Source: Symbiodinium sp. CCMP2592
Taxonomy: Eukaryota > Sar > Dinophyceae > Suessiales > Symbiodiniaceae
Assembly: GCA_905221615.1 (NCBI GenBank)
Contig: CAJNDT010003101.1
Location: 1-64,000 of the forward strand
Direction: 5' to 3'
DNA: 64,000 bases
The first letter of the stretch is position 1. Every line of letters starts with the position of its first letter. The notes below the pieces were generated by a model. It was given only the letters and a program-made list of their open reading frames with translations, was not told where the DNA came from and searched no databases. A program made the translations under genes and the position numbers. This document shows, piece after piece, positions 4,821 to 40,621 of this stretch.

Positions 4821-4894
4821 CCCCTTGCCTCGCAATCTTCTCCATCTTAGGTGCCGGGCACCCCAGGGTAGTTGTCCAGGGAGCCACAAGTGCT
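4821..4894 (-). CDS. candidate exon, unknown protein
   Basis: Acceptor GTGCAG, then the frame ALVAPWTTTLGCPAPKMEK continues to a donor GGTTAAGGGGTTTAGGG. A second frame ends in an in-frame stop (STCGSLDNYPGVPGT) and would make this a C-terminus. The open frame reaching the donor is preferred. Telomeric repeats flank both sides. Confidence 0.4.
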
Positions 4895-5957
4895 CTGCAC
4901 ACTAGCCTCAGGGTTCAGGGTTTAGGGCCGTTTAGGGTTTAGGGCCTCAGCAGCAGTCTGCCATGGAGTAAGGCGCTTGCGGACTCGATGGAACCACAGT
5001 GCAAGTAAAGGGATCTACCTTTCTAGTGCGTCTGGAATCCTGAACCCCGCACCCCTCAAGCCCCTGATGGTACTACCAGCTTGGTTTCGCCCGCTGGTTG
5101 TGCGGTCGTTTTTTCGCCTAAGCGCCTCGCTTTAGGACTCAGGGCTGGGCATCGTACTGGTTTAATTCAGGATTATCATACGGGTCCTACAAAGGCCTTC
5201 TGTAGTTAGGTTTAGTACGGTTCCAGAGTGTCAGCTCTTAGGGTGGATTGGGGTTTGAGGGATAAGGGTTCCAGGGTTTGGAGATTAGGGCTTGCAGGGT
5301 TTACGGTGTAGAGGATTAGGAACGTAGGTTTTAGGGCTTGAACCTTACGGATGCAGGTGTTAAGGTGTAGGATCCGTGTCCTTGGAGGGGTCCCACCTGA
5401 TTCTGGCGACTATTGGGAAGTTAGGGCTCAGGGTTCAAGGAAGGTTGCGTTTGCCAAGTCCCGCTTGATGCATGTTTCAACTCAAGCTCCTGATCAAAAG
5501 ACTGCGGGTTTAGGGCTTAGGGTGCAGAGGTTAAATGGAGTTCCAAGTACATCCAAGCAAAGCCCAAAAGGAAGGCTCGACCCAGTCAAGAGCTACTGGT
5601 GCAGCTGCCTAGCTAGCAACTTAAGAATGCCGCATTCTGAATACCAGGAGATCAAAAATCTTATTACCCCAATAAGCCACCGAAATGAAAGGTTAAACTT
5701 TCCGATTCCTACTAAACTATAAGCACGCAAAAAGTTTAAAGGTAAAGTATGGGGGATCTAAGAAATAGCCAACTGTTCAGATCTGAAGACTCGAATTTTG
5801 GGGCCATCACGGCTACAATACCACGCCAAAGAGAAGAAGGTTGTCAACTGGACACTTGCTGGTTCAGACCTGGTTCCTACGACGGGTTTAACGTTAAGGA
5901 TTTAGGGATTCCATGAAAGGATAGAATCCCGGAATTCGATAGTCGTAGCATCTCAAC

Positions 5958-6056
5958 CCCAAGACTCTGAATCATAAGCGAAGCAGCAATAGATGTTCCG
6001 ATATAGGTGGTGGCCGACACCAAATCGATAATCGCGGCTGCGCAAAGGCCTTGTCT
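5958..6056 (-). CDS. duplicated gene, copy 1, exon d
   Basis: A 33-codon exon that starts RQGLCAAAIIDLVSATTYIG and continues with TSIAASLMIQSLG to donor GGG|GTTGAG. It is strongly hydrophobic. It matches the exon at 49564-49655 (LQGLCAASVLNIVTVASYMT) and resembles an internal repeat of the cysteine module encoded by 7033-7957. It starts in phase 0, as the exon at 7033-7124 ends. Acceptor is CTCCAG. The family is unknown; it could be a membrane or packed-helix segment. Confidence 0.8.
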
Positions 6057-12617: not shown

Positions 12618-12655
12618 CTGTCTGCTGCATGCTTCACTTTATCGTCGATGAACTC
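12618..12655 (-). CDS. candidate micro-exon
   Basis: EFIDDKVKHAAD lies between acceptor TTTGCAAG and donor AG|GTCGGGG (38 nt). Codon choice is coding-like. A TTTAGGG unit sits on the acceptor side at 12714. Short length limits confidence. Confidence 0.5.
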
Positions 12656-12772
12656 CTTGCAAACGGCAACCCGAAATTACGTCACTCCTAATACCAAGAA
12701 TTAGGTGGTGGGGTTTAGGGTTTAAGCTTCGGGTGTGCGCAAGGATGATTACAGGCTGAAGTATCGTGGCAT

Positions 12773-12912
12773 GGATGGTGGTGGTGGTGGTGGTGGTGGT
12801 GGTGGTGGTGGTGGTGGTGGTGGTGGTGGTGGTGGTGGTGGTGGTGGTGGTGGTGGTGGTGGTGGTGGTGGTGGTGGTGGTGGTGGGTGGTGGTGGGTGG
12901 TGGTGGGTGGTG
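12773..12912 (+). repeat. (GGT)n microsatellite
   Basis: About 40 GGT units with interruptions at the 3' end. The long glycine, valine, threonine and tryptophan ORFs across it are artefacts. Confidence 0.95.
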
Positions 12913-13059
12913 GCAGTAGTAGCGGTAGCAGTCGTTTTAGTAGGAGTGGTTGTAGTAGAGTTGTAGTACTGTACCGGCAGCACGTAGAAGCAGTGACAGC
13001 AGCAATAGAAGCTGCAGCAGTAGTGGCGATGACGTTCGTTGGTCATGATGATGGTGCTG

Positions 13060-13315
13060 ATGAAGAATGAATGAGTGAGTGAGTGAATCAGTGAGCGAGT
13101 GAATGAATGCATGAATTAATGAATGAATGAATGAATGAATGAATGAGTGAGTGAGTGAGTGAATGAATGAATGAATGAATGACCGAAAGAATGAATGAAT
13201 GAGTAAATCAATGAATGAATGAATGAACGAATGAGTTCATGCATGGATGAAAGAATGAACGAATGAATGAATGCATGCACGGATGCACGGATGAATGAAT
13301 GAATGAGCGAATGAG
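13060..13315 (+). repeat. (GAAT)n microsatellite, degenerate
   Basis: GAATGAAT units interrupted by GAGT, GCAT and GGAT variants. Confidence 0.95.
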
Positions 13316-13699
13316 AGCAGTGTCAGTAGCCTTCATATGTCGCACTGTGAAAAGCATGCCATCCTACCCGAAAGCATAGATCTCTTATCTTACAACTTGT
13401 AACTCTAAACCTTTAGCCAGCAGCTTTGAATTACGCCTAGCACAACGAGAGCAAGAACAACATAGAAATTGAATAGGTGCAATTTAAAGGGTTCCTTCAC
13501 AGGATTACAGGGTTTACCATAGGGACCTTGACAAATCTAGCACGTTTCCTTTAAAGGGCTCTGTACTGGCGAGGAGGGTTTGGTGTAGCGGCTTTAAGCA
13601 GGTTACTCTCGTGTTGAGGCTTGTACAGTTTAGGAATTTACCAACCAGCAAAAACGATAACGGGACACTCTTCGCAACTATCCAGACACCTGTGTCGCC

Positions 13700-13990
13700 C
13701 TAAACCCAAAACCCTAAACTCCTAAATCCTAAAACCCTTAAAACCTAAAACCCCTAACCCCTAAGCCCCCTAACCCTAAACCCTAAACTCCTAAATCCTA
13801 AAACCCTTAAAACCTAAAACCCCTAACCCCTAAGCCCCCTAACCCTAAACCCTAAACTCCTAAATCCTAAAACCCTTAAAACCTAAAACCCCTAACCCCT
13901 AAGCCCCCTAACCCTAAACCCTAAACTCCTAAATCCTAAAACCCTTAAAACCTAAAACCCCTAACCCCTAAGCCCCCTAACCCTAAACCC
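13700..13990 (-). repeat. 69-bp higher-order CCCTAAA repeat
   Basis: A 69-bp unit made of degenerate CCCTAAA, beginning CCCTAAACTCCTAAATCC, is repeated four times almost without change (starts at 13712, 13781, 13850, 13919). It lies between the exons at 12618 and 14197, on the donor side of the latter. Confidence 0.9.
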
Positions 13991-14097
13991 TTAACTCCCA
14001 AAACCCCCAAGGCCTAGACTCCTAAGACCAAAACCCTCCGATCCTCACAGCCCTAAACACTACACCACCACCAAAACAACTCCCATCTCCAAACCTA

Positions 14098-14195
14098 TAC
14101 TGAACCTAGAACCCTAGCAAAAATTAGAATTTTAGCTGTTTCTTAGGGATTACAACAACCGAAAATTAAAAAATAATTCTAAGTACCCCTAAGTA
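14098..14195. repeat. dispersed repeat, family M
   Basis: TACTGAACCTAGAACCCTAG to CTAAGTACCCCTAAGTA. Its right end touches the exon at 14197-14270. Confidence 0.8.
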
Positions 14196-14196
14196 G

Positions 14197-14270
14197 CCCG
14201 GATGGCCGGGCCTTGTCGTCGGGGTCGCTGGCATCGGCGATCTGGCGGCGGCGCTCAAGTTTTAAAGTGG
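14197..14270 (-). CDS. candidate exon, charged helix
   Basis: After acceptor CCCGAAG the frame reads TLKLERRRQIADASDPDDKA and then RPSG, with strong G/C third positions. The reading runs into the end of the family M element with no GT donor (the junction would be a GC). A TTTAGGG array starts at 14280 on the acceptor side. Confidence 0.6.
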
Positions 14271-14279
14271 CTTCGGGCA

Positions 14280-14455
14280 TAGGGTTTAAGGGTTTAGGGT
14301 TTCGTGGTTTAGGGTTTTAGGGTTTCGGGTTTAGGGGTTTAGGGGTTTGGGGGTTTAGAGTTTAGGGTTTCGTGGTTTAGGGTTTAAGGGTTTAGGGTTT
14401 AGGGGGTTAGGATTTAGGGGTTTAAGGGTTTAGGGTTTCGTGGTTTAGGGTTTAA
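14280..14455 (+). repeat. TTTAGGG array
   Basis: Mixed GGTTTAGGG, GGTTTCGTGG and GGGTTTAAGG units. Confidence 0.9.
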
Positions 14456-15189
14456 GGGTGAACTATGGCAGTTTCTACCATGAGAGTTTGTACCTTAACA
14501 GGAAGTCGAAACAGGGAACCAGGGTGCGCACTGCTAGAAACCAACGGGGCTCTGTTTGGGGATGGGGGAGAAAAATGGAGTTTGCGAAGCCGAAGCCACA
14601 AATGGAGCACCCTGCTGCGAGCCTTTTCCAGTGCGTCGGCTGCCCCTGAGTCCGGGATGCTTAGGCTAATAGGGTTTTATTGTTTAGGTTTCTTCGGGTC
14701 TGTAAGCTTTCTTTCGTGGTGGTTCAGTCGCGTTGTATTAGGTCCAAAGATGGGTTCCGGGTTTACGCTTTTGCGGTTGTCGGAATTAGGTACTAGGTTC
14801 TCCAGTAATGAAGAAGATACATCCTAAACTAAACCCTAAGCCCTTGCAGAATCGCAGCTACTCAAGGAACAAGATGCAGGAGCAAGGAAACTAATCCGGC
14901 TGGCTTGGGGTCTGAGGGCCTGGGGTTAAAGTTAGGGCCAAAAGTTCAGGGGTGTACCTTGAGCCGCCCTTAGGTGCACATCCTGAGGTTATCATGAGCA
15001 AAGGACATAGTTCCCAGGAGCAGTAAAAGTAACAGTAGCCGAAACAACCATAAGGAACTATGTAAAGAATCCAGAATACATGGTACCGTGAAGAAGTAGG
15101 GTAACTTTTTGGGCTACAGGCACACACCCAGATCCTAAACTCACTGATAGCCCTCAGCCCCTAAATCAAAAAGTATTCTGTCCTCCGGA

Positions 15190-15296
15190 ACCTGTCGGGT
15201 ATCATGGGGAACTAAAGGTTTACCTTTTTGGTTATACAGGGATTATATCGGGGATATGCTACCCAAAAATAGGTTAAAGGTTACCTACGCTTCTAC
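15190..15296. repeat. dispersed repeat, family O
   Basis: ACCTGTCGGGTATCATGGGG to GGTTAAAGGTTACCTAC. Confidence 0.75.
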
Positions 15297-15507
15297 TGGG
15301 AAGACATGGAACCCCAAACCCCAAACCCCCGGTCCCGGCACGCACGCTTTCGAAATGAAATCGCGAACCCTACAGCCCAGAAGCACTAAACTTTTAAACT
15401 CGCAACTCCACTTCCATAAAGCGCTAGGGCCTCAAACCATACTTGGAGGAGCACAGGACTATAGTGCGAAAAGTTCAGATATATTTAGTTGGGATATACA
15501 TACACAA

Positions 15508-15715
15508 CCATAAACCCCTAAACCCTAAACCCCTCTAAATCTAAACCCTAAACCCTAAAACCCTAAACCCCTCTAAATCTAAACCCTAAACCCCTCTAAA
15601 TCTAAACCCTAAACCCCTCTAAATCTAAACCCTAAACCCCTCTAAATCTAAACCCTAAACCCTAAACCCTAAAACCCTAAACCCCTCTAAATCTAAACCC
15701 TAAAACCCTAAGCCC
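15508..15715 (-). repeat. CCCTAAA array with 23-bp sub-repeat
   Basis: CCCCTCTAAATCTAAACC alternates with CCCTAAA units. It lies on the donor side of exon 15752-15798. Confidence 0.9.
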
Positions 15716-15751
15716 TGAAGCCTCAGACCCCACATCCTGCAGCCGAAGCAC

Positions 15752-15798
15752 CGGTCTTCATCGCTTCCACGTCGGACATAGCTTTGGCCTGTTGGGAC
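15752..15798 (-). CDS. candidate exon
   Basis: One base plus SQQAKAMSDVEAMKT plus one base (47 nt) between acceptor CTGGCAG and donor G|GTGCTTC. It has a C-rich array on the donor side and a G-rich array (15830 onward) on the acceptor side. Confidence 0.6.
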
Positions 15799-15829
15799 CT
15801 GCCAGGCTCTGTTTTTTTTTTTTTTAACT

Positions 15830-16170
15830 TTTTTAGGGTGTTAGTTCGTTTTTTAGGGCTTTAGGGTTTTCGTGGGTTTAGTTGGTAGTTGGTTTCGGGG
15901 TTAGGGTTTTAGGGTTCAGGGGTTTAGGGTTTAGGAGGTTTAGGGGGCTTAGGGTTTAGGGTTTTAAAGTTTAGGGTTTAGGGTTTAGGGTTTAGAGTTC
16001 AGGGTTTTAGGGTTTTAGTGGGTTTAGGGCTTAGGGGTTAGGGTTTTAGGGTTCAGGGGTTTAGGATTTAGGAGGTTTAGGGGGTTTAGGGTTTAGGGGT
16101 TCAGGGGTTTAAGGGTTTTAGGGTTTAGGGGTTTAGGGGTTAGGGGTTTATGGGTTTAAGGCTTAAGGTT
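15830..16170 (+). repeat. TTTAGGG array, degenerate
   Basis: About 340 bp of GGTTTAGGG variants (TTTTAGGG, TTCAGGGG, TTAGGAGG). Confidence 0.9.
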
Positions 16171-16385
16171 TTAGAGCTTCCGAAAGCCAGTGAGAACAAA
16201 AGGGGCGAGGGGTTGAAGATCTTTGAAGGGTTTAGGGTTTAGGGTTACCCTAAACCCTAAACCCCTTATAGTAAGGTTGAGACTTTGGGATTTCGGAGGT
16301 TGGCTGGGGACGGAGCTCTGGGTGGCAAGTAGTCTCGTAATGCAGCCGGGTTCGGGTTTTTCTGGTAAAGGGTTTAGGGTTTAGG

Positions 16386-16498
16386 TTAGAAGGGGCCCCC
16401 ACCCTGTAATAGTGGTATAATAGGAATATAATAGGGGCCCCTATTATATTCCTACATATTCCTACTATACCACTATTACAGGGTGGGGGCCCCTTTTA
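16386..16498. repeat. fold-back element, family J
   Basis: TTAGAAGGGGCCCCCACCC and its complement at the right. The inner arms GTAATAGTGGTATAATAGGA are perfect, making this the most regular hairpin of its size here. Confidence 0.9.
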
Positions 16499-16596
16499 AG
16501 GTTTAGGGTTTAGGGTGTTTTCGAACTTTTCAATACGATAGATTAGCCGGTCTCGGCTTTCCTTTGCACTTGCAACAAGACGTGCTTGAGGGTGTA

Positions 16597-16717
16597 CTTG
16601 GGGGGTCGGGGGACTTAGTAACTGGCTATTTTCGGGACTTATAAGTACCATCACCCCAATTAGGGTCCTTTTTAGGGTACTTATAAGTCTACTTACTAAG
16701 TCCCCCGACCCTCCAAG
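16597..16717. repeat. fold-back element, family A
   Basis: CTTGGGGGGTCGGGGGACTT to CCCCCGACCCTCCAAG, flanked by TA on both sides. Confidence 0.85.
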
Positions 16718-17084
16718 TAGGGTCTTGCAAAGGCAAGGGTGTCGAGCGTTGAGGATGTAGAGTACGAGTCACAACATTGATTCACAATTTCTGTTGCTCC
16801 TCGATGTTCGCCTTGGCACAACACAAGACACTGCGAATCTAAGTCATATTCACGTCAACCCAGAACTCTCAAACCTCAGTCCTAAGCCCTCCAAAAACTC
16901 ACTCTTGCACCGACAAAGACGAGCCAGCAGCTCATATCCCAACTGGCTAAGACAGTAGGTGGAGCCACACGTCACACTTCCAAAAAAAGCACACAGACTC
17001 TTACATGACCTCACGCCGCAGAGTTTAGGACCTTAACGTTTAAGGAGGCAGAGACAGTTTAGAATCCGAAACCCTCACCACTAA

Positions 17085-17205
17085 ACTCTACCTAAACCCT
17101 AAACCCTAAACAACTAAACTCTAAACCCTAAACCCTAAACCCTAAACCCTAAACCCTAAACCCTAAACCCTAAACCCTAAACAACTAACCTCTAAACCCT
17201 AAAAC
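17085..17205 (-). repeat. CCCTAAA array
   Basis: Regular CCCTAAA units abutting the donor of exon 17206-17287. Confidence 0.9.
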
Positions 17206-17287
17206 CCCAAGATTCCAGGCCCTGAGAGGCAGACGCGGCAGGGTCGGCAGGGAGCGTCGCCAGTCCGGCCGCCAGTTCGCCCGTCAA
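17206..17287 (-). CDS. candidate exon, Ala/Leu-rich
   Basis: Acceptor TGTCTTTGCAG is close to the eukaryotic consensus. The frame reads LTGELAAGLATLPADPAASA, then SQGLESW, and ends G|GTTTTAGGG (82 nt). CCCTAAA and TTTAGGG arrays flank it in the usual polarity. Confidence 0.65.
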
Positions 17288-18169: not shown

Positions 18170-18560
<391 letters not shown>

Positions 18561-18667
18561 CACCACTACCCTTACCAGGACAAAAGCCGTGCATCCTCCT
18601 CCAGGCGTCGGAAGCCACGGCCAGCCGAAGATTGAGACTGGGCAGCGTTGACTTTCGGGTTCCGGGT

Positions 18668-22433: not shown

Positions 22434-22628
22434 GGATCCTTGGGGTTACCCTAAGCCGTAAACCCGGAAGCCTCTTCCTTGCAAAGGCCCGGGGAGTAGA
22501 CCTTCCTAACACCCTCTTTACAAGGGGGTCTATAAGGGCTACTAAAAGGGATCTATAAGGGTACTATAGTAATTATAGGGGCCTTAAACCTGAGAATAAG
22601 GAAAAGGGTTTTGGGGCCCGTTATACTA

Positions 22629-22723
22629 TACCTGGACCCTAAGGAACCTACCTTTTTTAGGGTTCCCTAATATGATTTCTTTATATAAGTCCTTGAAAAG
22701 GTAGGTTACGTGGGGTTAAGGTA
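22629..22723. repeat. fold-back element, family H, opposite orientation
   Basis: TACCTGGACCCTAAGGAACC to CGTGGGGTTAAGGTA. Confidence 0.9.
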
Positions 22724-23642: not shown

Positions 23643-23658
23643 ACGGGACCTTAAACTA

Positions 23659-23765
23659 TAAAATAAAAGCCAGAAAGTTGGAATATGATTCTCCTACACC
23701 CTTTATGGTAAATTATAGGGTATCCTACCCTGAAACCATATTCCAACTTTCTGGAGTTCCCTTTA
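23659..23765. repeat. fold-back element, family B
   Basis: TAAAATAAAAGCCAGAAAGT to CAACTTTCTGGAGTTCCC. Confidence 0.85.
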
Positions 23766-23855
23766 GTGGAACCCCTAGTCTGATTGAAGGAAGATTCCTC
23801 ACTTAAGGGATATTGGAGTCTCTGGGTTACGGGAACCAGACACAAGCTGCCACTA

Positions 23856-23967
23856 CTTGGAGGCCCTTTTGACTTAGTAAGTCGGGTTAGTAAGGTGGGT
23901 TATGGGGATTATAATGGGGTTTCTAGGGGATACTAAGTAGACTTACTAAGTCAACAGGGCCTCCAAG
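23856..23967. repeat. fold-back element, family A
   Basis: CTTGGAGGCCCTTTTGACTT to CAGGGCCTCCAAG, flanked by TA on both sides. Confidence 0.85.
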
Positions 23968-29093: not shown

Positions 29094-29191
29094 GTATAAG
29101 AGTTTTTGGTGTTTGGGGTTAGGGTCTTAGGGCGTAGGTTCAGGGCTTGCAGAATACTACCAGTACTGCCATGTTTCCAAAAAGGCGCTAC

Positions 29192-29298
29192 TAAAGACAA
29201 AGCCAGAAAGTTGGAATACGATTATCCTAAACCCTTTATGGTAAATTATAAGGTATCCTACCCTGAAACCATATTCCAACTTTCTGGAGTTCTTTTTA
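29192..29298. repeat. fold-back element, family B
   Basis: TAAAGACAAAGCCAGAAAGT to CAACTTTCTGGAGTTC. Confidence 0.85.
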
Positions 29299-29494
29299 CG
29301 GTTTCAGGTCTAGGTTTTAGGTGGATTGACCGCACATAATAATCAGGAATAAGACCGAGCTTGGGAATCCGGAATGGGTCTGGTTTTTCTAGACCCCAGA
29401 CCCTTAACCCTAAACCCCTATACTGTAAACCCTAAACTCTAAACCCTAAACTCTAGACCCTAAACTCTAAGCCCTTAACTCTAAACCCGCAAAC

Positions 29495-30431: not shown

Positions 30432-30515
30432 GCTCCTTCCCCAATTTCTCGAGGCGCATATCCTCGATGTAGATGGCGATGTAGCCCCAAATCGCCAGGT
30501 TCAGTTGGACCATGG
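30432..30515 (-). CDS. candidate exon, membrane-like
   Basis: Acceptor GCTTCAG, split codon, MVQLNLAIWGYIAIYIEDMR then LEKLGKE, donor C|GTGGAG (84 nt). Very strong coding look: hydrophobic stretch followed by a charged helix, G/C third positions throughout. Confidence 0.75.
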
Positions 30516-30535
30516 CTGAAGCAGGGAATTAGCAT

Positions 30536-30647
30536 CTAAAATGTCCCGTAACCTAGGAATAAAAAGGGCTCCCTCTTTGGTGTTGGGTACCTTTATAAGG
30601 AGCCTAGGACTACAAAATGGGAATAAGGGTACTACTGGACATCCTAG
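30536..30647. repeat. fold-back element, family E, with 4-bp duplication
   Basis: CTAAAATGTCCCGTAACCTA to CTACTGGACATCCTAG. GCAT flanks both ends (30532-30535, 30648-30651). Confidence 0.9.
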
Positions 30648-31525
30648 GCATAGGGTTTCGGGTTCAGGGTTTCTCAGACTCACGGAAGTGCCAAGTTCGA
30701 AGATACAACCCCAAGTCTTGTGGGCTTATAGAAGGGGACATTTTAGGAAGGGGCCTCTTTCAAGAGTTCCAGTTTTGGATCGCGTGGGCTTGTTCAGTGC
30801 ACGCCTGTTTTATGGAGTGGCGAACTTGTGTTAAGGGTTCCGCTTCAGGCTGACCTACGCATGTTGTGAAAAGCGCCCTCGGCGTGCAGAGCTTCTAGTA
30901 TCCCCAATCTCCGAAACCCCAAACCGCAGGACTCCTTGAACGAGCTCTTTGCAGGACCCTACGCCGCGAGCATTAACGACTAGAGGAGGCATTTTCGAGT
31001 TCCTTCTAACGTGTAGAACGGCCCTGATTAGGCCATGTTCTAATTATGAACCCCTATACCCTAGACCCCAAAGCCCCTGTAAAAGGCCGACGGACCTGAC
31101 ACTCTACTATCATGTGCCTGCGCAGAAATCCTGCTGGGCGGCATCCATGGGGTACGGACTCTTGCAAGCAACCGTCACCTCAGAGAGAGAGACAGAGAGA
31201 CAGAAAGCGTTCTTGTGAGTATTATTTTGAGAGTTTGGAAATGAGCGCTAAGATCTCAGGACTTGCTGCTGAGTAGTGCCAATTTGGTCCGTGCTACACC
31301 GACTAGTTAGTAGGGGGCGGGACAGAAGCGGCAGAGTGCAGGCACGAAGAGCACAAACAAACCCTAACCAAGCTCTACACTGCGACGGAGCCTAAATTTA
31401 ATCCTATCGCAACCGGCTAAAGCGACAGGGGAACATTTGTCGAAACACTTTCATCTTTTGTAGTTGCACTGGGCAGGTTCGTACGTCAGGATGTTGGGCT
31501 GTCGGGCCAGTATCCAACGTCCCTC

Positions 31526-31632
31526 ATGTAGGAACCTGATTAAGAAACCTTGGGCGTTGTTAGGCCTTATATGAGTCCTACTATTTTGAGGTGGGTTCTA
31601 GGCCCAGGGTTTCTTAATCAGGTTCCTACATT
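31526..31632. repeat. fold-back element, family L
   Basis: ATGTAGGAACCTGATTAAGA to TTAATCAGGTTCCTACAT. Confidence 0.85.
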
Positions 31633-31859
31633 AAGTGTCTTGAGTCCTGAACTGGAACCCTAAATCGTCAAACTCTGTGTCGAAGCCCTTCGATATAGTG
31701 CACGGTGCATTTTGCACCCCGCCTTCTCTTCTCCGAATTCAGGGCATGTGCGGGATCCTGTTCACGAAGGTGGATACCCATTGGGGGGTAGGGGTGGTGG
31801 GGGTGGGGCCGCCGGGGGGCAGGTCTTAGGATTTACGGGTTTAGGGAAGCCCAAGTCAC

Positions 31860-31897
31860 AGTGCGGATGTTCGTGACGATCCTCGGATGGTCGTGCA
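31860..31897 (-). CDS. candidate micro-exon
   Basis: HDHPRIVTNIRT between GTCGTCAG and ACT|GTGACT (38 nt). Confidence 0.45.
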
Positions 31898-32143
31898 CTG
31901 ACGACAGCTTTACACTCCTTCCGCGCTAACCAAGCGTCTTAACCCTAATTACTCTAAAAGCCCTTAAAGACCCCAAACTCTAAACCCTTGACCCCTACAA
32001 GCCCCCAAAGAAAACCAAGATTGCAAATCCGGCTCCTGTAAGGGCGTGATCTCTGCGCTTCTACTTGGATCGGTGCTTGGTCAAAAAATTGCTCCTCTTG
32101 GCTGTGCCCGGAGTATCCCGAAATCCTGTGAGGTTTGGGATAT

Positions 32144-32249
32144 GGGAGTTACCAAAAATGGGGGATCCCAATATAATACCCTAACTAGTAGGGTCCTTAT
32201 AATACAAAAAGGTCACCAAAATAAGGTACCTCCATTTTCGGAAACTCCC
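32144..32249. repeat. fold-back element, family F, with 4-bp duplication
   Basis: GGGAGTTACCAAAAATGGGG to CATTTTCGGAAACTCCC, ATAT on both sides. Confidence 0.9.
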
Positions 32250-32351
32250 ATATGACCCCAGACCCTCAACTCGAGGATTTCGGGCGCAGGTTTGGACTTA
32301 GAGCTGTAGGGTTTATGATGGTTTATGGCTTCCAGGGCCCAGGCTTTGGAG

Positions 32352-32468
32352 TACAGTAGAAGCCAGAAAGTTGGAACATCATTATCCTCATGCCCTTAAG
32401 GTAAAGTCTAAGGGATCCTAGCACTAATCCTTCTAAAGACATGGCCCGACTTTCTGGCTTCTACTGTA
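32352..32468. repeat. fold-back element, family B, second subtype
   Basis: TACAGTAGAAGCCAGAAAGT to ACTTTCTGGCTTCTACTGTA. The interior matches the arms of the long hairpin at 2692. Confidence 0.85.
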
Positions 32469-32986
32469 AGGGTTTTCGGGGCTTAGGGTTTAACAAGGTT
32501 CGCAGGGAGGGAAACCTGGTAGGCCCCCTTGTCTCTGTTTTAAGCCGTTGTTTTAAACCAGCCCACTGTTTCAAAATACGCGATTAATTTCAAAAGGTTT
32601 AAGGGTTTGCTTCAGAAGATACTGCGACAAGGCCCAACTGTAGGATCTTGCAGGCCATGAACGAAGGAAGACCCCGCAAACCGTGCGAGTGAGGGTAAAA
32701 AGTCTACGGGAGTTCCGGAACATAGGGCTGCCAACACAAACCCCAAGCGGAAGGAGCCTACGTTTAAGGAGATCAGTCCTAGTGCGGAGTTGCCGACAAG
32801 TCTCTGCCCGATACTCGACAGGATCTGAAATGCATCAATGCCACAAAGGGCCTGCAAAACGAAACGGGTAGCGGTTCGGAAAGGGTATTTGGGGTGTGCT
32901 TGACATTGCTTGAAGGCAACTTCAAGGAACGATATCGAAAGGAGCTTTTGGTGACAGCGACCCAAACCTTTTGTCGCCCTAAACAC

Positions 32987-33056
32987 TAGGAACAAAGGGA
33001 TCTTGGCTTGCCCTCCAGTGATGTTGTTGAGCCGAGGGCCGAGGATGGGCCGTCTT
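32987..33056 (-). CDS. candidate exon abutting a fold-back element
   Basis: The exon begins at the end of family A element 33057-33255, whose terminal CCAAG would be the acceptor. It reads RRPILGPRLNNITGGQAKIP then LFL, to donor CTA|GTGTTTAGGG (70 nt). If the element is removed with one flanking dinucleotide, the frame continues upstream as PSFHPR. Confidence 0.55.
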
Positions 33057-33255
33057 CTTGGAGGCCCTCTTGACTTAGTAAGTCCACTTAGTATCCCCTA
33101 GAAACCCCATTATAATCCCCATAACCCACCTTACTAAGTCAAAAGGGCCTCCAAGTAAGAAACCCTAAACCCTATAGATCCCTTTAAGGAACCCCTATAG
33201 ATCCCTCTTAGGACCCCTTTAAAGGAACCCTTACTAAGTCAAAAGGGCCTCCAAG
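33057..33255. repeat. fold-back element, family A, two right ends
   Basis: CTTGGAGGCCCTCTTGACTT on the left. The right end AAAAGGGCCTCCAAG occurs at 33141-33155 and again at 33241-33255, with CCCTAAA and AAGGGATCTATAGGG-type phrase between them. Confidence 0.85.
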
Positions 33256-33401
33256 TTGGGTGAAAGGAAGGATCTACGTGCCTGCAGAAAGCTGTTCCGG
33301 CTTCGGGTCTGAGAATAAGGTTCCATTAAAAGGGGTCTATGTAAGGGCTACTATAAGGCATCTATAAGGGTACTGTAGTATAGGGGCCTTAAGAACTACT
33401 T

Positions 33402-33506
33402 TACTGAACTTAGAACCCTAGCAAAAACTATAATTCTAGCTGTTTCTTAGGGATTATGATAACTTATAACCAAAAATTTAAAACTATTTCTAAGTACCCC
33501 TAAGTA
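33402..33506. repeat. dispersed repeat, family M, nested
   Basis: TACTGAACTTAGAACCCTAG to CTAAGTACCCCTAAGTA, inserted in a family D element (TATAGGGGCCTTAAGAACTA at 33379). Confidence 0.8.
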
Positions 33507-33922
33507 GAGGGGCCTTGATCACCAGAAAAAGGGGCCTCGGGGTACATTATAGTTTACTAACACAGGGACGGTCAGGAAGCACTAGTACAGACTTTGGGGT
33601 TGCGTGCTTCAGCTCTAAGCCCTACCTGTAGGCTAATACCCTACCCCTTGTTTAGGGGATCTACTTTTCTATATAGCAGATCCTAACCATAAAACTAGGT
33701 ATCCTAAAAAGGGGTAAATGATGAGCCTCTAGGTAAACCCGAAAGCTCTTTCAGGGTTTCGCCGGCACTCCAAAGCCTTTTGGCGTAGATCGCGACTCTC
33801 TGCCCTGGGTGCCAGAACCCCAAACCCAGACTTCACCAGAACCCTAAACCCCAAGCCCGAAAAAAACCCGAAACCAGGAACACCCCTGGCCCTAAACCCT
33901 AAAGCCCGCAAAAAACCTGCTG

Positions 33923-34011
33923 ATGTAGGAACCAGATAAAAAAAGCCTGGCCCCATAGCCTGGGATTCATATAACAGAAACCCACAGGGTTCCTGAATCA
34001 GGTTCCTACAT
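33923..34011. repeat. fold-back element, family L
   Basis: ATGTAGGAACCAGATAAAAA to GAATCAGGTTCCTACAT. Confidence 0.8.
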
Positions 34012-34014
34012 GAC

Positions 34015-34124
34015 ATATGGGTGGTTGTCAAAATCATGGTCCCTCTTTGGGTGCCCTAAATATCAGGTGCCGCACTATCATGGGACCCAGAAAGGGACCC
34101 TGATTTTCACAACCACCCACATAT
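34015..34124. repeat. fold-back element, family N
   Basis: ATATGGGTGGTTGTCAAAAT to TTTTCACAACCACCCACATAT, 4 bp from the family L element. Confidence 0.8.
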
Positions 34125-34440
34125 ACACACCATTAAAACCCTGGAAAGCCCAGCTATAAGCCTGCATCGAGCCGCCTCTTTGACCCGCAACTTAGGGGCT
34201 GAATACCCTACCTAGCCCCCCCCAAAAAAAAAAGGTAAACCTTTTCAACTATGGTAGGGCTTATAGGGTTTAGGGTTTAGGTAGTCCTAGCCCAAAAAAG
34301 GTTGAGGAATATACGAAACCCATAAAGTTAACGGTTACCTACTCAGACACTAAGTTTAAGTCAAAACCCTTGAATGCCACACGGCCAGAGCCGCTCGCTC
34401 AATGACTTTCCTCTTCGAGTTTCGGGTCAAGGAGCGAGGT

Positions 34441-34533
34441 CCCAGAGACTCCAAAACCCTCCTTCAACTATAGTAGGATCCCTAAAACGCTTTAAGGAGT
34501 AGTCCTTAATTCAGGGATATTGGAGTCTCTGAG
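34441..34533. repeat. fold-back element, family G, second subtype
   Basis: CCCAGAGACTCCAAAACCC to GGGATATTGGAGTCTCTGAG. Confidence 0.75.
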
Positions 34534-34742
34534 TTCACAGCTCAGCTGATTTGGGGTGTAGGTTTCATGGCTGTTTGGGGAGGGTTGAGGGTTTTTTAGG
34601 GAGTTTTGGGGTTGGTTAAAAGTTTAGGGCTCAGGGTTGAGAGCTGCTGAGGGTGAGAAGTTGCAGGATTAGGGTTGATCGGTTTGGGGTTTAGGGTTTA
34701 GGGTGTCAGTCAGAGAGATCGAGGATCCGTGGCTGAACTCAC

Positions 34743-34880
34743 CTCACCCCGAGCCGAAGGTGCGGCAAAGGCACCCAAAGCATCTGCCGCATGACGTCCA
34801 GCTTTCCGACGTCATCGGGCGGCACCTGCTCAATGTTCTGCTGGAGCTTCCTGGGAACGAGCAAGAACACGGAGTCTGGG
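34743..34880 (-). CDS. exon, charged/leucine-rich, unknown protein
   Basis: One of the longest good exons (138 nt). After acceptor ACTCCCAG it reads PDSVFLLVPRKLQQNIEQVP, PDDVGKLDVMRQMLWVPLPH and LRLGV, to donor AG|GTGAGTTC, a consensus eukaryotic donor. Third positions are mostly G or C. The opposite strand is also open but His-rich, as expected of a shadow. Family unknown. Confidence 0.8.
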
Positions 34881-34905
34881 CTGGGAGTGTAGGGAATTAG
34901 GATTT

Positions 34906-35007
34906 GGGAGTTTCCGAAAATTAGGGGTACCTTATTTTGGGGTCCTTTTAATAATGATCCTACTATTTAGGGTACCATATGAGGGCCCCCTATTTTCGGA
35001 AACTCCC
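34906..35007. repeat. fold-back element, family F, with 4-bp duplication
   Basis: GGGAGTTTCCGAAAATTAGG to TATTTTCGGAAACTCCC. ATTT flanks both ends (34902-34905, 35008-35011). Confidence 0.95.
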
Positions 35008-35230
35008 ATTTGAGTTTGGGGTTTAGGTTTTATGGGACAGGGTTTGGGTTTCCGGTTTCGGGCTTCAGGCTTTCCTGGACCTTCCGAAACCTTACTGCGA
35101 CTTCCTTCTACAAGTCCCTGAAAAAGTAGACTACTTGGGGTTAAGGCAAGGTAAAATCTTTTCGAGCCCTGAACCCTAAATCCCCCAAAGGCCCTAAATT
35201 CCCACCCAGGCCTGCTTAGGCCGTGCCCAC

Positions 35231-35269
35231 CCTTTTTCTTAGGGTGCCTGGACCCAGAAGGACTTCAAC
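35231..35269 (-). CDS. weak micro-exon candidate
   Basis: VEVLLGPGTLRKR between GTCGCTAG and AGG|GTGGGC, with telomeric units on both sides in the usual polarity. Confidence 0.4.
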
Positions 35270-35632
35270 CTAGCGACCTCTTTAGGTCTAAGGAGTCTAA
35301 GGGTTTAGGGTTTAGGGTTTGGGTTTTTTGGGCTTACTGTACACCTCTTTAGGCCTACGGAGACCCTTAGGGTTTAGGGTTCAGGGTTTAGGTTTTTTGG
35401 GCTTATGGTTTCAGGGTTAGCGCTGAGGTTTCAGGCTCTTAGGGAACAGGCTTTGGCACCCCCTGCTTGCCGGTTTCAGGGTTATGGGCGCGGGAACCTG
35501 CAGCCCCGAACCTTACAACTCCAAACCGTGAAGAAGATACCACTCAAGCAAACCCACAACGTAAAGCTCTGAAAGCCTAATCCTCTAAATCCAGATCTTA
35601 GGTGCTCCAGTGATTTTTCGTGGCCTGCGAAC

Positions 35633-35677
35633 CTGTAGCCTTTGCAACTCGCACCTCGGAATCCTTGAGCAGTGTGC
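35633..35677 (-). CDS. candidate micro-exon
   Basis: Acceptor AATATCAG, split codon, TLLKDSEVRVAKAT, donor G|GTTCGC (45 nt). Starts in the same phase as the exons at 9485 and 53431, with a faint resemblance. Confidence 0.55.
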
Positions 35678-36654
35678 CTGATATTTTAGGCTTGGTAACA
35701 TGCAACATGAAACCCTAATTAAACTTCAACTCCAAAACATGAAACCCTAAACTTCAACCCCAAAACCCTCAAAGCCTGAAGCCTTCGGATCAGCCCCTGA
35801 TCTCGACTGCTAAATGCTCCAAGCCCGAACCCCTTTCCAGGTCCTCGCGTGGGCATCCGTAGCCTGAGCTGGACAACCGGGGCTTCAAGGTTTGGTGGGT
35901 GTGGGCTGTTTGGGGTTCTGAGGTTTAGGAAGTTTAGGAATTAGATGGGTTTAGGTTTTTGTTGAAAGAAATGTTCTAAACCCCAAACCGTTTCAGCAGG
36001 TTATAGCCTTGACCCTTCAGGCTTGCAGTGCCTCTGTTTCGGGTTGAGGGTCTGGGAGCCAGGAGTAACGCCTTGTGCCCGCTTGAGCTTACGAGCAAGG
36101 CCCCCAAACCCGCCTTTCTTGTCAACCTAAGTCCTAGCGCTTCCACAGCGCACCCACGCAAATTGCTGATAGGCGCAGTATTTCGGACTGTTTTCCTGCG
36201 TCGAAAGTTAGTTGCCCCGTCGATTTCAGAAGTTTCTGAAGCGATTCTGCTTCAGGAAGCGACCCAGCATGAGGAGCAGTGCTCTCATGTTCATGTTTTA
36301 TGAATGTGAGTACACCACTGATACACATATTGCAACAGCTCAGGGTTCGCACGAGGCTCGATGTCGGGAAGGCTAACAACAAGGCGGTGGAAGGGACTGC
36401 TGAATATATTTCCAGCTACTATCAATGGTGCCAGAACAGAATGCGCCTGCAAAGCAGGCTTCCGGCCCCGACGGTGCATTTTACGCCACACGCCTTTGCC
36501 GTGGGAGACATGGTAGTGAGGCAAACCTAGGTCGTCGGCTACAGTAGGGTACAAGCGCGCCCAATCACTCACGACCGCCTCCGTGCGGCATCTGTCGATG
36601 CAGCGAAGGCCGTGGCAACTCTCCTTTGCGATTCTATATAAAGATGACTGCGAC

Positions 36655-36806
36655 CAGATGGTCTACGCCAGCTTCGCAGAAGAGCTCAAACGTGTCCTGC
36701 AGCTCCACGGTTCCCACCACGCGCAAGCAAAGGACCATGGAAAGGCCGAGAGCCAGCCATGGCACCACCTGCTCTTGTGTCACGTCCATGGCAGAGTGGG
36801 AGTACC
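36655..36806 (-). CDS. candidate exon, membrane-like
   Basis: Starts after GGTTCAG: YSHSAMDVTQEQVVPWLALG, LSMVLCLRVVGTVELQDTFE, LFCEAGVDHL, to CTG|GTCGCAG; the frame stays open to a stop at 36634. One clear hydrophobic helix is followed by an acidic stretch. The plus strand is also open, but with seven His in a short span it reads as the shadow. Confidence 0.65.
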
Positions 36807-37167
36807 CTGAACCCACAACTCCAAACCCGAAACTTTACATGAACGTCCTTGCTCGGGCAGTCTGGGAGCACCCTGCACCCGACACCCTAGACGAACCCAA
36901 AAATCCCTGGACTTGTACTCCAACCCACTCGGCAACCATCCGGTACACTTCTCGTTTTGTGCGTGTGCACCTGAGCTTGCATGTGCCATGCTAGGGCTTC
37001 GAGCTTCGAGGCCTTGAAGGGTTTGGGGTTTCGAGGCGTTTAAGGGTTGGAAGGGCTTGGGGTTTGGAGGCGTTTAAGGGTTTGGGACCCTAGAGTAAGG
37101 ACGTGTTTGGGGCTTAGGCTTGTCAGTGACTTCGTGGTTGTCTTGACGCGCTTCCAATGTACGTAAT

Positions 37168-37222
37168 TGCCCCCCCCCCCAACCCCCCCCAACCCCCCCC
37201 AACCCCCCCCACCCCCCCACCC
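37168..37222. repeat. poly-C with AA spacers
   Basis: Runs of 8 C separated by AA: a short C8AA tandem repeat. Confidence 0.9.
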
Positions 37223-37343
37223 CTCAAAAAACCAAACCGGAAACCGCCAAACCAGGCCTTGGGGTGTTGAACACACTAAAAAGCGCGGGTTCCTTATGGA
37301 GACGCTTAGACCTAAGTAAACCCTATATCCTAAACTCTGAAAC

Positions 37344-37431
37344 CCAGCTGGGGCACGTTCTTGAAGAGCTTCATGTTGTAGTCGAACTTGAGATTGTCTG
37401 GATCCGAGTGGTCGATGTCGAGGTACTTCAC
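37344..37431 (-). CDS. exon, unknown protein
   Basis: VKYLDIDHSDPDNLKFDYNM then KLFKNVPQL (88 nt) between acceptor GGCTTTAG and donor G|GTTTCAG. Almost every codon ends in C or G and the peptide is hydrophilic and non-repetitive: one of the clearest exons. Telomeric units flank it in the usual polarity. Confidence 0.8.
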
Positions 37432-38016
37432 CTAAAGCCGCACGCTTTGGGGTTAAGGGTTTAGGGCTTAGGTGCTCATGGCCCATCAGCCCTAGACCCC
37501 AACCCCTTAAACCCGAAAGATCCATGAACCTTAAACCCTCAAGTCCCACAAACCCTGACCCAAACCCCGAAATCCCAAACTCAACTCCCTAAACTCCAAA
37601 CCCTAAGCCCTAAACCCCTAAACCCTAACCCCCCCCGAATCCTGAACGCTAAACCCTAAACTTCCCTAAGCCCGGAACTCGCGTGCTACAGCGCGAACCC
37701 TAAGCTGCCGTCCAATTCATACAACAAAAGGTAGTCCTTGAAGTGGCCCTGGGATCTTGAGAGCTCCTTAAAAGGGATCAAAAGGGTTCCTAAGAGGGAT
37801 CTATAGAGTTTAGGGTTTAGGGTCTAGATCATGGGGCCTTAGTAGAGTAAGGCTATCAATAAGGTAACGGTACTGACATCATCTATTTATAGCCCCAGAT
37901 ATCCTCCAAGCAACCCCTGAACCCTTAACCGCAAAGGAGGTCTAACTCATAGACAAAAATCCTAAACCCTGAACCCTAAACCCTAAGACCTAAACCCTGA
38001 ACCCTAAATCCTAAAC

Positions 38017-38108
38017 TTAACCCCTAGTAACCTACCTTTTTAGGGTTTCTTACTCCGATTCCTTATATAAGTCCTTAAAAAGGTAGGTTCTTCAGGGTTA
38101 AGGTAAGC
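38017..38108. repeat. fold-back element, family H
   Basis: AACCTACCTTTTTAGGGTTT to AAAAAGGTAGGTTCTTCAGG. Confidence 0.75.
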
Positions 38109-38165
38109 TCCAAACCCCAAACTTTAAGGTCCCGGGGTCTGAGATTTTCCGGCCTGGTCCCAGAC

Positions 38166-38202
38166 CTCTCGATCTGCGCCATCCGGATAAATGTCCTGGC
38201 AG
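38166..38202 (-). CDS. candidate micro-exon, related to 55163-55250
   Basis: ARTFIRMAQIE between GGGGAAG and AG|GTCTGG (37 nt). The RMAQ segment aligns with LRFARMAQLNTR in the exon at 55163. A second open frame (CQDIYPDGADREVWDQAG) is the alternative. Confidence 0.45.
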
Positions 38203-38264
38203 CTTCCCCAAACCGGAAAAATGCCAAACCCCACTTAAATTTCAGAAATTTAGGCTGTAGGGCT

Positions 38265-38392
38265 TAAGGTTAGGGGTTACGGGTCTAGGGGTCTAGGGGT
38301 TTAGGGTTAAGGGATTTAGGGGTTAGGGTTTTTAGGTTTAGTGAGGTTTAGGGTATTTAGGGTTTCGGGAATTTAGGGTTTAGGGTCTCCGC
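38265..38392 (+). repeat. TTTAGGG array, degenerate
   Basis: Units TTTAGGG, TCTAGGG and TTAGGGG. Confidence 0.85.
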
Positions 38393-38599
38393 AACCTAGC
38401 AGAATGGAAGGATCTCACACTTAAGCGCCCTTAGAACCATAATAAACACACATCTTTCATCAACCCCTGGCATTTTAAAGGTAAAACCTAGAAGAGAATT
38501 CCCTAAGAGTCCTAAAGTATAACAAGTGCCCCTACATCTGCGGGGCTTTGGGGCTACACATAAAGTCTACTAGGCTCAGGGCTCAAGCCGTGCTTGACG

Positions 38600-38760
38600 G
38601 CTTGGGATCCAGCTGCTACTACTAACACGATTGCGACTACCACTACCACGAAAACTACCAGCTGCCCCTATCACTACCACCAAACTGGCCACTACCGCTA
38701 CCGTCGCCACGACGACAACCAGTAGTGCTGATAATCATCATCATCACCGTACTATTAATC
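38600..38760. repeat. degenerate trinucleotide region
   Basis: ACTACCACT-type triplets, related in style to the microsatellites at 18.2 and 54.6 kb. No convincing exon. Confidence 0.5.
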
Positions 38761-39319
38761 ATAATAGTTCTCTTGAAATCACTTACAACGGCGCGCATAG
38801 CTCATGGACGTCCCGCAGTTCTCCTTTCAGGTACGATTCTGAATCAACTGAATAGCAGGGTATACGCTGAAAGGGTAATACTGGGCGACGTAGTACAGAT
38901 CACAGGTTGTGTAGCGGACACATGAGGAGTCCACGAAAGGGTGCTCGAAATCCAAGAAGCCTGACGAGCTAAATCCGAGAACCCTAAAACCATGAAGTCC
39001 ATTTACCGAAGGAACTTACCCTAGACCCGAAACTTAAACCCCTAACCCCGAAACCCTAAAACCCTAAACCCCACAAACCGTGAACCCTAGGCCCCTTGTA
39101 CCCTGAACACTCAACCCTGAAGCCCTGAGCCTGTTCAATGCTAAGGCCTGAATAGTTTACGCTATACTTCTAATAACACCCTCCCAACCAAAATCACATT
39201 TATTATACCTTTGCTAACAACTCGTCTCAATCCACCTGCAAAACCCTATAGACAACATATCAAAGCCTGTGCTGACTTTACAAACCAACTGAAACCGGAT
39301 AGACCTGCCGAAAGAACCC

Positions 39320-39455
39320 GAAACCCTAAACCCCAACCTAAACCCTTAAACCCTAAACCCCGAAACCCTAAACCCCTGAATCCCTAAACCCCTAAACCCC
39401 TATACCCTAAACCCCTAAACGCCTAAATCCCTAACCCCTAAAACCCCTAAACCCC
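39320..39455 (-). repeat. CCCTAAA array
   Basis: CCCTAAACCCC variants ending at the donor of exon 39463-39526. Confidence 0.9.
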
Positions 39456-39462
39456 ACTTCAC

Positions 39463-39526
39463 CTTGATGGCGTTCAGCAGCTCCCCGAGGTGACGCTTCG
39501 TGGGCATGTGGACCAGGCCAGGGTGC
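39463..39526 (-). CDS. exon, unknown protein
   Basis: After acceptor AAAGAG, one base, then HPGLVHMPTKRHLGELLNAI and K, to donor AAG|GTGAAGT (64 nt). Strong coding look. The acceptor motif CCGAAAGAGGC is repeated on the far side of the adjoining family B element (39672-39682). Confidence 0.75.
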
Positions 39527-39537
39527 CTCTTTCGGCT

Positions 39538-39644
39538 TAAAGGGAACTCCAGAAAGTTGGAATATGGTTTCAGGGTAGGATACCTTATCATTTACCATAA
39601 AGGGCTTAGGAGAATCATATTCCAACTTTCTGGCTTTTACTTTA
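39538..39644. repeat. fold-back element, family B
   Basis: TAAAGGGAACTCCAGAAAGT to CTTTCTGGCTTTTACTTTA. Confidence 0.85.
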
Positions 39645-39883
39645 GGTTTTTTGTTTTACAGGGGCCATTCGACCGCCTCTTTCGGTTTAGGGTTTAGGGT
39701 AAGGATCCTACAAATCCTTTCACATGGCCTGTTCTGTTTTCTGTCAAGGATATAGCGGGTCGGGAATTTTAGATTTGAGTTGTTGTTGCCTGAGGGGTCA
39801 AAATCACCTCGTGCGTAGCTTGTCGCCTGCACAGTTCTTTGCCGCGGTAGCCCCGGTCACAGCAACAAGACCGCAGGGTTTAA

Positions 39884-39988
39884 TGTAGGGGCCTTGCAAC
39901 TAGAACAGGGTTTTAGTACTATAACTATATCACATAATGAGGACCCCCCCCCCCCAAATAGTACAGGTAACTATTTAAGCCCCTATAG
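39884..39988. repeat. fold-back element, family D
   Basis: TGTAGGGGCCTTGCAACTAG to AACTATTTAAGCCCCTATA, with a poly-C run inside. Confidence 0.75.
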
Positions 39989-40139
39989 TAGTAATTGGGG
40001 GGCCTCGAGGTTGGCTTGAGGGGTCGTGGGTAGCTACTGGTGATACCAGTGGGGCTGGAGATTCCCATATGGTTTAAGGTTTAGGGTTTAGGATTTAGGG
40101 TTTAGGGCCATGAAGCTTAAGGCCCTATAAGCCCTAAAC

Positions 40140-40181
40140 CTGAAACGGGGCCGAGCATCTCCATCCACTTGTAGTCCTGGG
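40140..40181 (-). CDS. candidate exon
   Basis: Acceptor TCTTCAAAG, split codon, QDYKWMEMLGPVS, donor G|GTTTAGGGC (42 nt). The donor itself is a telomere-type unit. The frame is open upstream as FLFKA. Confidence 0.65.
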
Positions 40182-40407
40182 CTTTGAAGAGAAACCAGAC
40201 AGAACAAATTATAAGCTCGTATTTCATATTGGTTCCTTTAAGGAGCGCAAAAACAGGTACGAACTAGCATGCATTTCATTTCATAATGGTTCCTTCAAGG
40301 AACAGCTCCAAACACGAGTATAAAGGCATGGCACTCCAGAGCGCCTGTAGACCCCTCGTAGGAAGCCCAAAGAGATCCCAGTGATAAAAGTAAACCCTAA
40401 ATCCTAA

Positions 40408-40511: not shown

Positions 40512-40621
40512 AACTCCAAACCCTAAACCCTAAGCCCTAGCCACTAAATCCTAAACCCCTAAGCCCCGAATTCCCAAACCCTTAACCCTCAAACCCTAAG
40601 CCCTAAACCCAAACTCCTCAC

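Follow-up and report, generated by a model that had tools for sequence, protein, structure and literature searches.

Telomere-like heptamer arrays show opposite strand polarity on the two sides of short exons in a 64-kb window of Symbiodinium DNA

Telomere-like heptamer repeats are abundant in the first 64,000 bases of contig CAJNDT010003101.1 from Symbiodinium sp. CCMP2592, and this whole stretch is called the window below. It contains 245 copies of TTTAGGG and 234 copies of CCCTAAA, together with 57 telomere-like blocks on the G-strand (TTTAGGG) and 57 on the C-strand (CCCTAAA). Three genes (A, B, and C) were found among these blocks, and every placed exon is on the minus strand. Read along the transcript, C-strand arrays tend to lie ahead of exons and G-strand arrays tend to follow them. 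This polarity is real in the window. All exon counts reported here come from one 64-kb window with three neighboring genes, at least two of which are paralogous. Our tentative reading (probability about 0.43) is that splicing selects the orientation of arrays near exons, acting through G-runs and the avoidance of decoy sites rather than through duplexes.

Exons were mapped by tblastn with homologous predicted proteins (P0001–P0003 and P0005, then P0006–P0009). Boundaries were set, independently of the repeats, where protein alignment and reading phase agreed and where AG and G[CTA] were present. Since these dinucleotides were required, the fit to dinoflagellate splice sites is partly built in. 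The resulting set has 38 exons (17–102 nt) and 33 fully bounded introns (364–1923 nt, median 958 nt). Exons A15, C15, and E15, each the last one placed in its gene, contributed no donor side, leaving 35 donors, and the intervals A15–C1, C9–C11, C15–N1, and N2–E1 were not counted as introns. Exons E1 and E2 gave no tblastn hit of at least 19 bits and were placed via alignment and reading phase; the donors of C9, E3, A10, and E5 are less certain. Many exons were first spotted by eye, some of them at coordinates named in an earlier note on this DNA, with homology coming afterwards. Exons named and not named in that note were therefore counted separately. The paralog comparison of arrays, the global folds, and the 20-intron runs used an earlier set of 23 exons with older ends for A10 and A14.

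Within 100 nt of the 38 acceptors, C-strand arrays were detected at 18 sides, G-strand arrays at four, and neither at 16. On the 35 donor sides the corresponding counts were 14 for the G-strand, three for the C-strand, and 18 for neither. Concordant sides numbered 32 and discordant sides seven (sign test p = 3.5e-5). Sign tests assume independent exon sides, and the circular-shift test is the safer figure; with the 38 exons it gave p = 0.004 and 0.003 at 100 nt and p = 0.015 at 200 nt. The polarity persisted at 50, 150, 200, and 300 nt and with a higher score cut-off. Removal of E1 and E2 left 29 vs. 7 sides (p = 0.00016; shift test p = 0.013), and removal of E1, E2, C9, E3, A10, and E5 left 26 vs. 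7 (p = 0.00066). The 11 exons named in the earlier note contributed 13 concordant and three discordant sides, and the 27 unnamed exons 19 and four (sign test p = 0.0013). Minus-strand candidates from an ab initio exon finder, which was later replaced by homology placement, gave 23 vs. 6 at 150 nt outside the first paralog set (n = 34). No polarity was observed at random non-array positions (555 concordant vs. 647 discordant sides; 1500 positions, 150 nt).

The signal was also detected independently of annotation. On the plus strand, the median gap from a C-strand block to a G-strand block was 155.5 nt (n = 38), compared with 369.5 nt from G-strand to C-strand (n = 38; p = 0.006 by Mann-Whitney test at block score 30, with 0.0004–0.01 at six stricter cut-offs). 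Gaps of at most 260 nt included 28 C-to-G and 17 G-to-C cases (shuffled-label p = 0.0014). A placed exon was found inside 13 of these 28 short C-to-G gaps and inside only one of the 17 short G-to-C gaps, whereas short exon-free gaps within defined introns were balanced (five C-to-G, six G-to-C). The pattern is identical when read on either strand; replication or transcription strand bias alone therefore cannot cause the polarity.

The healing of broken chromosomes would give exactly this arrangement whatever the strand of the gene. After a double-strand break within or close to coding sequence, telomerase may extend both 3′ ends with TTTAGGG; once rejoined, such ends would leave inserts running from G-strand to C-strand, some of which might become or enlarge introns, and the polarity would need no splicing. 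A G-strand array 3′ of the last coding exon, E15 (4847–4906, minus strand), would also be allowed; this exon has a C-strand array before it and a G-strand array beyond its stop codon, where no donor is known. We regard this origin as quite unlikely. The gaps inside introns lack polarity, and the paralogs point to turnover of the arrays. Genes A and B share intron positions. At a range of 200 nt, both genes carry G-strand arrays on donor sides 10 and 11; donor sides 9, 12, and 13 carry the G-strand in B and are array-free in A, donor side 14 carries the C-strand in B and is array-free in A, and acceptor 10 has the G-strand in B and the C-strand in A. Array content thus changed once the introns were in place, which argues against the birth of these introns from arrays. 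Nor does break healing predict the compositional trend of array-free flanks described below, unless those flanks are decayed arrays.

The splice sites are of the dinoflagellate spliceosomal type. Donors were GC in 14 cases, GT in 13, and GA in eight (n = 35), and acceptors were AG|G in 32 of 38. This donor usage is nearer to the values for Suessiales than to those for Amphidinium gibbosum (GT 74.9%) in the table of PMC10666404. On the basis of homologs and donor usage, the window is dinoflagellate DNA. The earlier note had many introns beginning with GTTTAGGG or a variant; none of the 35 donors begins GTTTAG. A unit on the right strand was found within 600 nt of 33 of 35 donors, the first at a median distance of 44 nt into the intron; for acceptors (34 of 38 with such a unit) the median is 54 nt upstream. 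Its broader statement, that introns start with the G-strand and end with the C-strand, stands as a polarity near exons, but only 12 of 33 introns have both ends so marked within 200 nt. Most of the exon positions that it gave are near placed exons: E7 (12618), E6, E5, E4, E1, C9, C6, C2, and C1. In contrast, GTTTAGGG at 40140 is not the donor of C6, which homology and phase put about 20 nt earlier, on a side that scores as C-strand within 100 nt. Gene B has its stop codon at 4847, and the exons proposed at 3882 and 2624, both beyond it, gained no support from homology. The two exceptions that it listed are genuine. Exon E14 (5988–6049, minus strand; 5958 in the note) has a G-strand array ahead of its acceptor, and exon C11 (34775–34850, minus strand; 34743 in the note) has the C-strand past its donor and on both sides, the acceptor side being weak (score 22). 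Exon C13 (31860–31881, minus strand) is a further counter-example, with the G-strand before and the C-strand after it.

Downstream of their first two bases, the 35 donors (e.g., 19925, 42443, 54158, and 25525) have a loose motif in common, with C at +5 in 19 donors, T at +6 and at +7 in 16 each, and G at +8 in 17 and at +9 in 21. The string C[TC][TCG]GG was found within +4 to +11 of nine of 35 donors against 0.8 expected (p = 0.0005), in an exploratory count with the motif picked after looking. It could be an extended dinoflagellate 5′ splice-site signal.

The span from 12618 to 17287, from which the pattern was first described, follows it in part: all four acceptor sides carry the C-strand and the donors of E4 and E5 the G-strand, while the donors of E6 and E7 are unlabeled at 100 nt. 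Exon E4 (17235–17287, minus strand; 17206 in the note) has a C-strand array before its acceptor and a G-strand array after its donor, the latter written as CCCTAAA on the plus strand (17063–17210). Exon E5 (15737–15798, minus strand; 15752 in the note) has the same arrangement and a less certain GA donor. A TTTAGGG array on the plus strand (15832–16171, score 351) forms the CCCTAAA strand ahead of its acceptor in the transcript, and a CCCTAAA array (15506–15738, plus strand, score 234) forms the TTTAGGG strand past its donor. Exon E6 (14212–14253, minus strand; 14197 in the note), with donor GC, has the C-strand before it and the G-strand after it only beyond 100 nt; the array on its donor side (CCCTAAA on the plus strand, 13698–14066) has a 69-nt higher-order unit. 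Exon E7 (12618–12655, minus strand) has a weak C-strand array before it (score 29), none after it at 100 nt, and donor GT(CGGGG). Other repeats show the same strand rule. Intron E6–E7 has a GGT-type repeat at its start and an ACC-type repeat near its end (12776–12913 and 14063–14073), which hold an 11-nt exact inverted repeat, and AGT repeats are found on the transcript strand shortly past the donor of E3 (18215–18569).

It was proposed in the earlier note that the G-strand at the start of an intron could pair with the C-strand at its end and bring the splice sites together; the intron would then be looped out. RNAduplex was applied to the first and last 150 nt of the 33 introns. The two ends of the same intron paired better (−74.5 kcal/mol) than ends taken from any other intron (−67.2 kcal/mol, p = 0.012), and local complementarity in all 33 introns was likewise above random pairing (p = 0.0145). 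G-strand at intron starts and C-strand at intron ends were correlated (Spearman 0.38, p = 0.028), exact inverted repeats of at least 8 nt within 60 nt of both ends were present in 11 of 33 introns compared with 8% of random segments, and the 12 introns with a G-strand start and a C-strand end include E4–E5, E5–E6, and E6–E7 of the note. In the minimum-energy fold of E2–E3, all array pairs were confined to the intron (44 G-to-C, 33 C-to-G). However, the advantage of own ends disappeared when adjacent introns were used for comparison (−74.5 vs. −74.0 kcal/mol, p = 0.43). Pairing across exons equaled pairing within introns (−75.4 vs. −76.3, p = 0.61, n = 28 exons), although exons have 17–102 nt and introns 364–1923 nt, and the correlation across exons was likewise 0.38 (p = 0.025). 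No specificity for repeat variants was detected in the 12 introns with a G-strand start and a C-strand end (p = 0.28). The other folds were mixed: E1–E2 had 54 array pairs within the intron and 73 across exons, E5–E6 had 156 in the same intron and 248 spanning two exons, E4–E5 had 249 across exons and none within the intron, and E12–E13 had no array-array pairs. In all, within-intron array pairs were formed in three of the five global folds and cross-exon pairs in three. Neither a matching of the two ends of an intron to each other nor the pairing mechanism is supported; pairing may occur in the cell, but the sequence does not demand it. As the cause of the polarity we consider it unlikely. 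Intron-specific matching of ends had been a candidate result, positive against random pairing in both runs (p = 0.0028, 20 introns; p = 0.012, 33 introns), and was rejected after the comparison with neighboring introns.

A C-strand array, a short exon, and a G-strand array adjoin, so cross-exon pairing should compete. The flanking arrays might pair over the short exon and thereby present it to the splicing machinery or cause skipping or circular RNA. Such pairing is as strong as that within introns and spans a shorter distance; however, complementary flanking intronic sequences, as described for Alu elements in PMC9198270, favor back-splicing. We consider exon definition by a cross-exon hairpin very improbable. 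The suggestion in the earlier note that these repeats are splicing structure rather than telomere relics is borne out in part. Array orientation is tied to exon boundaries, and splicing is therefore a better context than randomly placed telomere relics. A matching of intron ends is unsupported, and a relic origin and a role in splicing are compatible.

Introners, i.e., introns born from transposons, could have telomere-like terminal inverted repeats. Dinoflagellate introners with inverted repeats at the intron ends have been published (PMC7789003; PMC10666404), and those of Amoebophrya (PMC7789003) and Prorocentrum cordatum (PMC10666404) resemble the present introns in the dinoflagellate host, the non-canonical donors, and the inverted repeats at the ends. 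The rule given in these reports calls for an inverted repeat of 8–20 nt and a direct repeat of 3–5 nt within 30 nt of both ends. The inverted-repeat part is present in one of our 33 introns, compared with 2.5% of random segments. In the 20-intron run, E7–E8 was the only intron to pass, and its repeat is not telomere-like. The first right-strand units lie at medians of 44 and 54 nt inside the intron. An introner origin is thus improbable. The idea that published introner counts represent telomere arrays was also considered and is unsupported (one of 33 introns).

Flanks without arrays show a trend similar to that of the arrays; the arrays therefore follow a general compositional trend. The 11 array-free donor sides contain 299 G, 211 C, 327 T, and 263 A, with G above C in eight and the reverse in three. 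In the 13 array-free acceptor sides, 353 C, 275 G, 359 T, and 313 A were counted, with C above G in nine and the reverse in four. After masking of arrays, GC skew within 100 nt of donors was positive at 24 and negative at five of 32 usable sides (p = 0.0012), sides with fewer than eight unmasked G+C being left out; a stricter mask gave 20 positive and nine negative of 31 sides (p = 0.0098). The earlier note saw the C-strand as a pyrimidine tract; this is a weak match, since CCCTAAA is C+A-rich while the array-free acceptor flanks are C+T-rich. Motifs of the G-quadruplex (G4) type were found on the transcript strand at nine of 35 donor sides and two of 38 acceptor sides, compared with 12.5% of random 200-mers, and C-type motifs at two donor sides and 10 acceptor sides. 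In human and mouse, G4 motifs are reported to be enriched near 5′ splice sites, especially weak ones, on the non-template strand (PMC9065059). The frequency of AG per 50 nt was 2.29 before acceptors, 3.94 after donors, and 3.52 in mid-intron. As 32 of 38 acceptors are AG|G, TTTAG|GG matches an acceptor.

These data are consistent with selection of array orientation by splicing as follows. Heptamer arrays would be abundant, labile repeats of long introns, and splicing would filter their strand close to exons. Transcripts tend to be rich in G and T past weak 5′ splice sites; a G-strand array would fit there and add G-runs, possibly acting as G-quadruplexes or as protein sites. Placed ahead of a 3′ splice site, such an array would repeat the decoy acceptor TAG|GG at 7-nt intervals, and the C-strand would survive instead. 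The outcome would be exons bracketed as CCCTAAA - exon - TTTAGGG.

Several observations weigh against this reading. Arrays were absent from 34 of 73 exon sides; they are not required, and the polarity is a tendency. A G-strand array was found within 100 nt before four of 38 acceptors (A9, C13, E10, and E14). GC skew at acceptors was not significant with arrays masked (p = 0.40, 100 nt), and decay of former arrays could account for the G/T-richness of array-free donor flanks. The AG frequency before acceptors (2.29) equals that expected from composition (2.39); decoy avoidance is therefore not separately shown. According to a section heading of PMC9065059, G4 enrichment at splice sites does not extend beyond vertebrates. 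Finally, the circular-shift test with exact hexamers was not significant for the 27 unnamed exons (p = 0.14). The last value, the dependence of the sign tests on independent sides, the restriction to one window, and the earliest set of 10 paralog-validated exons (7 vs. 4 at 150 nt, p = 0.27, not significant) would all be compatible with chance or with a selection of cases. However, several tests with differing assumptions agree, and plus-strand control candidates showed no bias (3 vs. 6, n = 11), which makes chance a distinctly improbable explanation.

Exons of 17–102 nt have to be recognized among introns of 364–1923 nt with mere G[C/T/A] donors, and for this a strand-polar bracket is a testable candidate. 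It is a rather unlikely possibility that, in this dinoflagellate lineage with its information-poor splice sites, such a bracket operates genome-wide and, through G-quadruplexes, duplexes, or bound protein, helps in the definition of very short exons, i.e., that a telomere repeat has been turned into a splicing signal. The bracket may also account for read-through stretches in predicted dinoflagellate proteins, such as LNPK in P0009 upstream of exon C1 residues. P0009 reads QTLNPKL at this position, and P0008 reads GLDSGFG after the residues of exon A15. To judge from these sequences, P0009 seems to continue through a C-strand array that precedes an exon and P0008 through a G-strand array that follows one, as in the window; they are two anecdotes.

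No description of this polarity was found in the portions of the open-access literature available to us on dinoflagellate introns, introners, and interstitial telomeric repeats. Related systems have been described. In fish introns, U2AF2 becomes dispensable where the opposite ends carry complementary dinucleotide repeats (Lin et al., 2016, as cited in PMC9198270). The likeness lies in simple repeats able to pair at both intron ends; here the repeat is a heptamer, most arrays lie tens of nucleotides inside the intron, intron-specific matching is lacking, and cross-exon pairing is equal. The G4 motifs at weak 5′ splice sites of human and mouse, as presented in PMC9065059, share the G-rich transcript strand inside the intron start and the weak sites, whereas in the window telomere-like arrays of a dinoflagellate supply the G-runs and the C-strand is mirrored at the acceptor. 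The nonconventional introns of euglenids described in PMC6221363 likewise have ends able to pair, but the borders here are G[C/T/A]...AG|G, of the dinoflagellate spliceosomal type. Plant telo boxes are also TTTAGGG motifs within genes; according to PMC3022908 they are short motifs in 5′ regions, unlike the long arrays with strand polarity around exons found here.

Loci outside the window were also inspected. One pattern led to five contigs, all from bacterial assemblies and none viral, and the other to 22 viral contigs. Pooled, these 27 loci contain no C-to-G and four G-to-C gaps and are no test of the polarity. Five IMG/VR contigs (L006, L008, L010, L019, and L022) have several short telomere-like blocks in one-strand runs. 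A single strand flip was observed in four of the five (L008, L010, L019, and L022), as if the motif tracked gene direction.

Gene B (4847–25555, minus strand) has 17 placed exons (N1, N2, and E1–E15) and a TAA stop at 4847. Its exons have 31–78 nt, and its introns, where bounded on both sides, 397–1556 nt; homology placement missed one or more exons between N2 and E1. Gene A (48722–54203, minus strand), a paralog of gene B, was recognized by paralog matches within the window and by tblastn; exons A9–A15 were identified, and those 5′ of A9 could not be placed. Gene C (30450–44004, minus strand) has 14 placed exons of 17–102 nt (C1–C9 and C11–C15). Exon C10 was looked for in gene C and not found, the top score being under the null median. 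Micro-exons C3 (41531–41553, 23 nt), C6 (40160–40176, 17 nt), and C13 (22 nt) have the support of homology and phase. The joined translation of gene B (256 residues) gave five protein matches (P0001–P0005), the best four with 51–52% identity; among them, P0001 (287 residues) has 51% identity over 91% of the query, and P0003, an unnamed protein of Symbiodinium natans, 52%. A second joined translation (gene C) gave four matches (P0006–P0009), in Symbiodinium necroappetens, Symbiodinium sp. CCMP2592, and two records that give no organism; the best has 55% identity over 85% of the query. Joined exons of B and C had no Pfam match. Neither a joined query of 367 residues nor two of the three pieces into which it was cut gave a Pfam family, and a 66-residue piece gave one sub-threshold match to a DUF family (E = 0.073). 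A PDB search with joined exon translations matched no chain, and Rfam (gathering threshold) and ARAGORN detected no family and no tRNA in the window. By eye, the gene C product appears to be a cysteine-containing hydrophobic protein similar to those of A and B, and the three genes may be one cluster; in the EukProt protein P0008, the end of A is joined to the beginning of C.

Other repeats are common in the window. Several short, partly palindromic families resembling miniature inverted-repeat transposable elements were found on both strands (2728–2893, 22600–22715, 23654–23899, 29151–29336, 39494–39682, 48987–49115, 50175–50283, and others). Long microsatellites of about 0.5–1 kb consist of ACAG/CACA and AGT units (45602–46638 and 54631–55082). 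Repeats detected by self-comparison, arrays included, cover at least 20244 of the 64000 bases.

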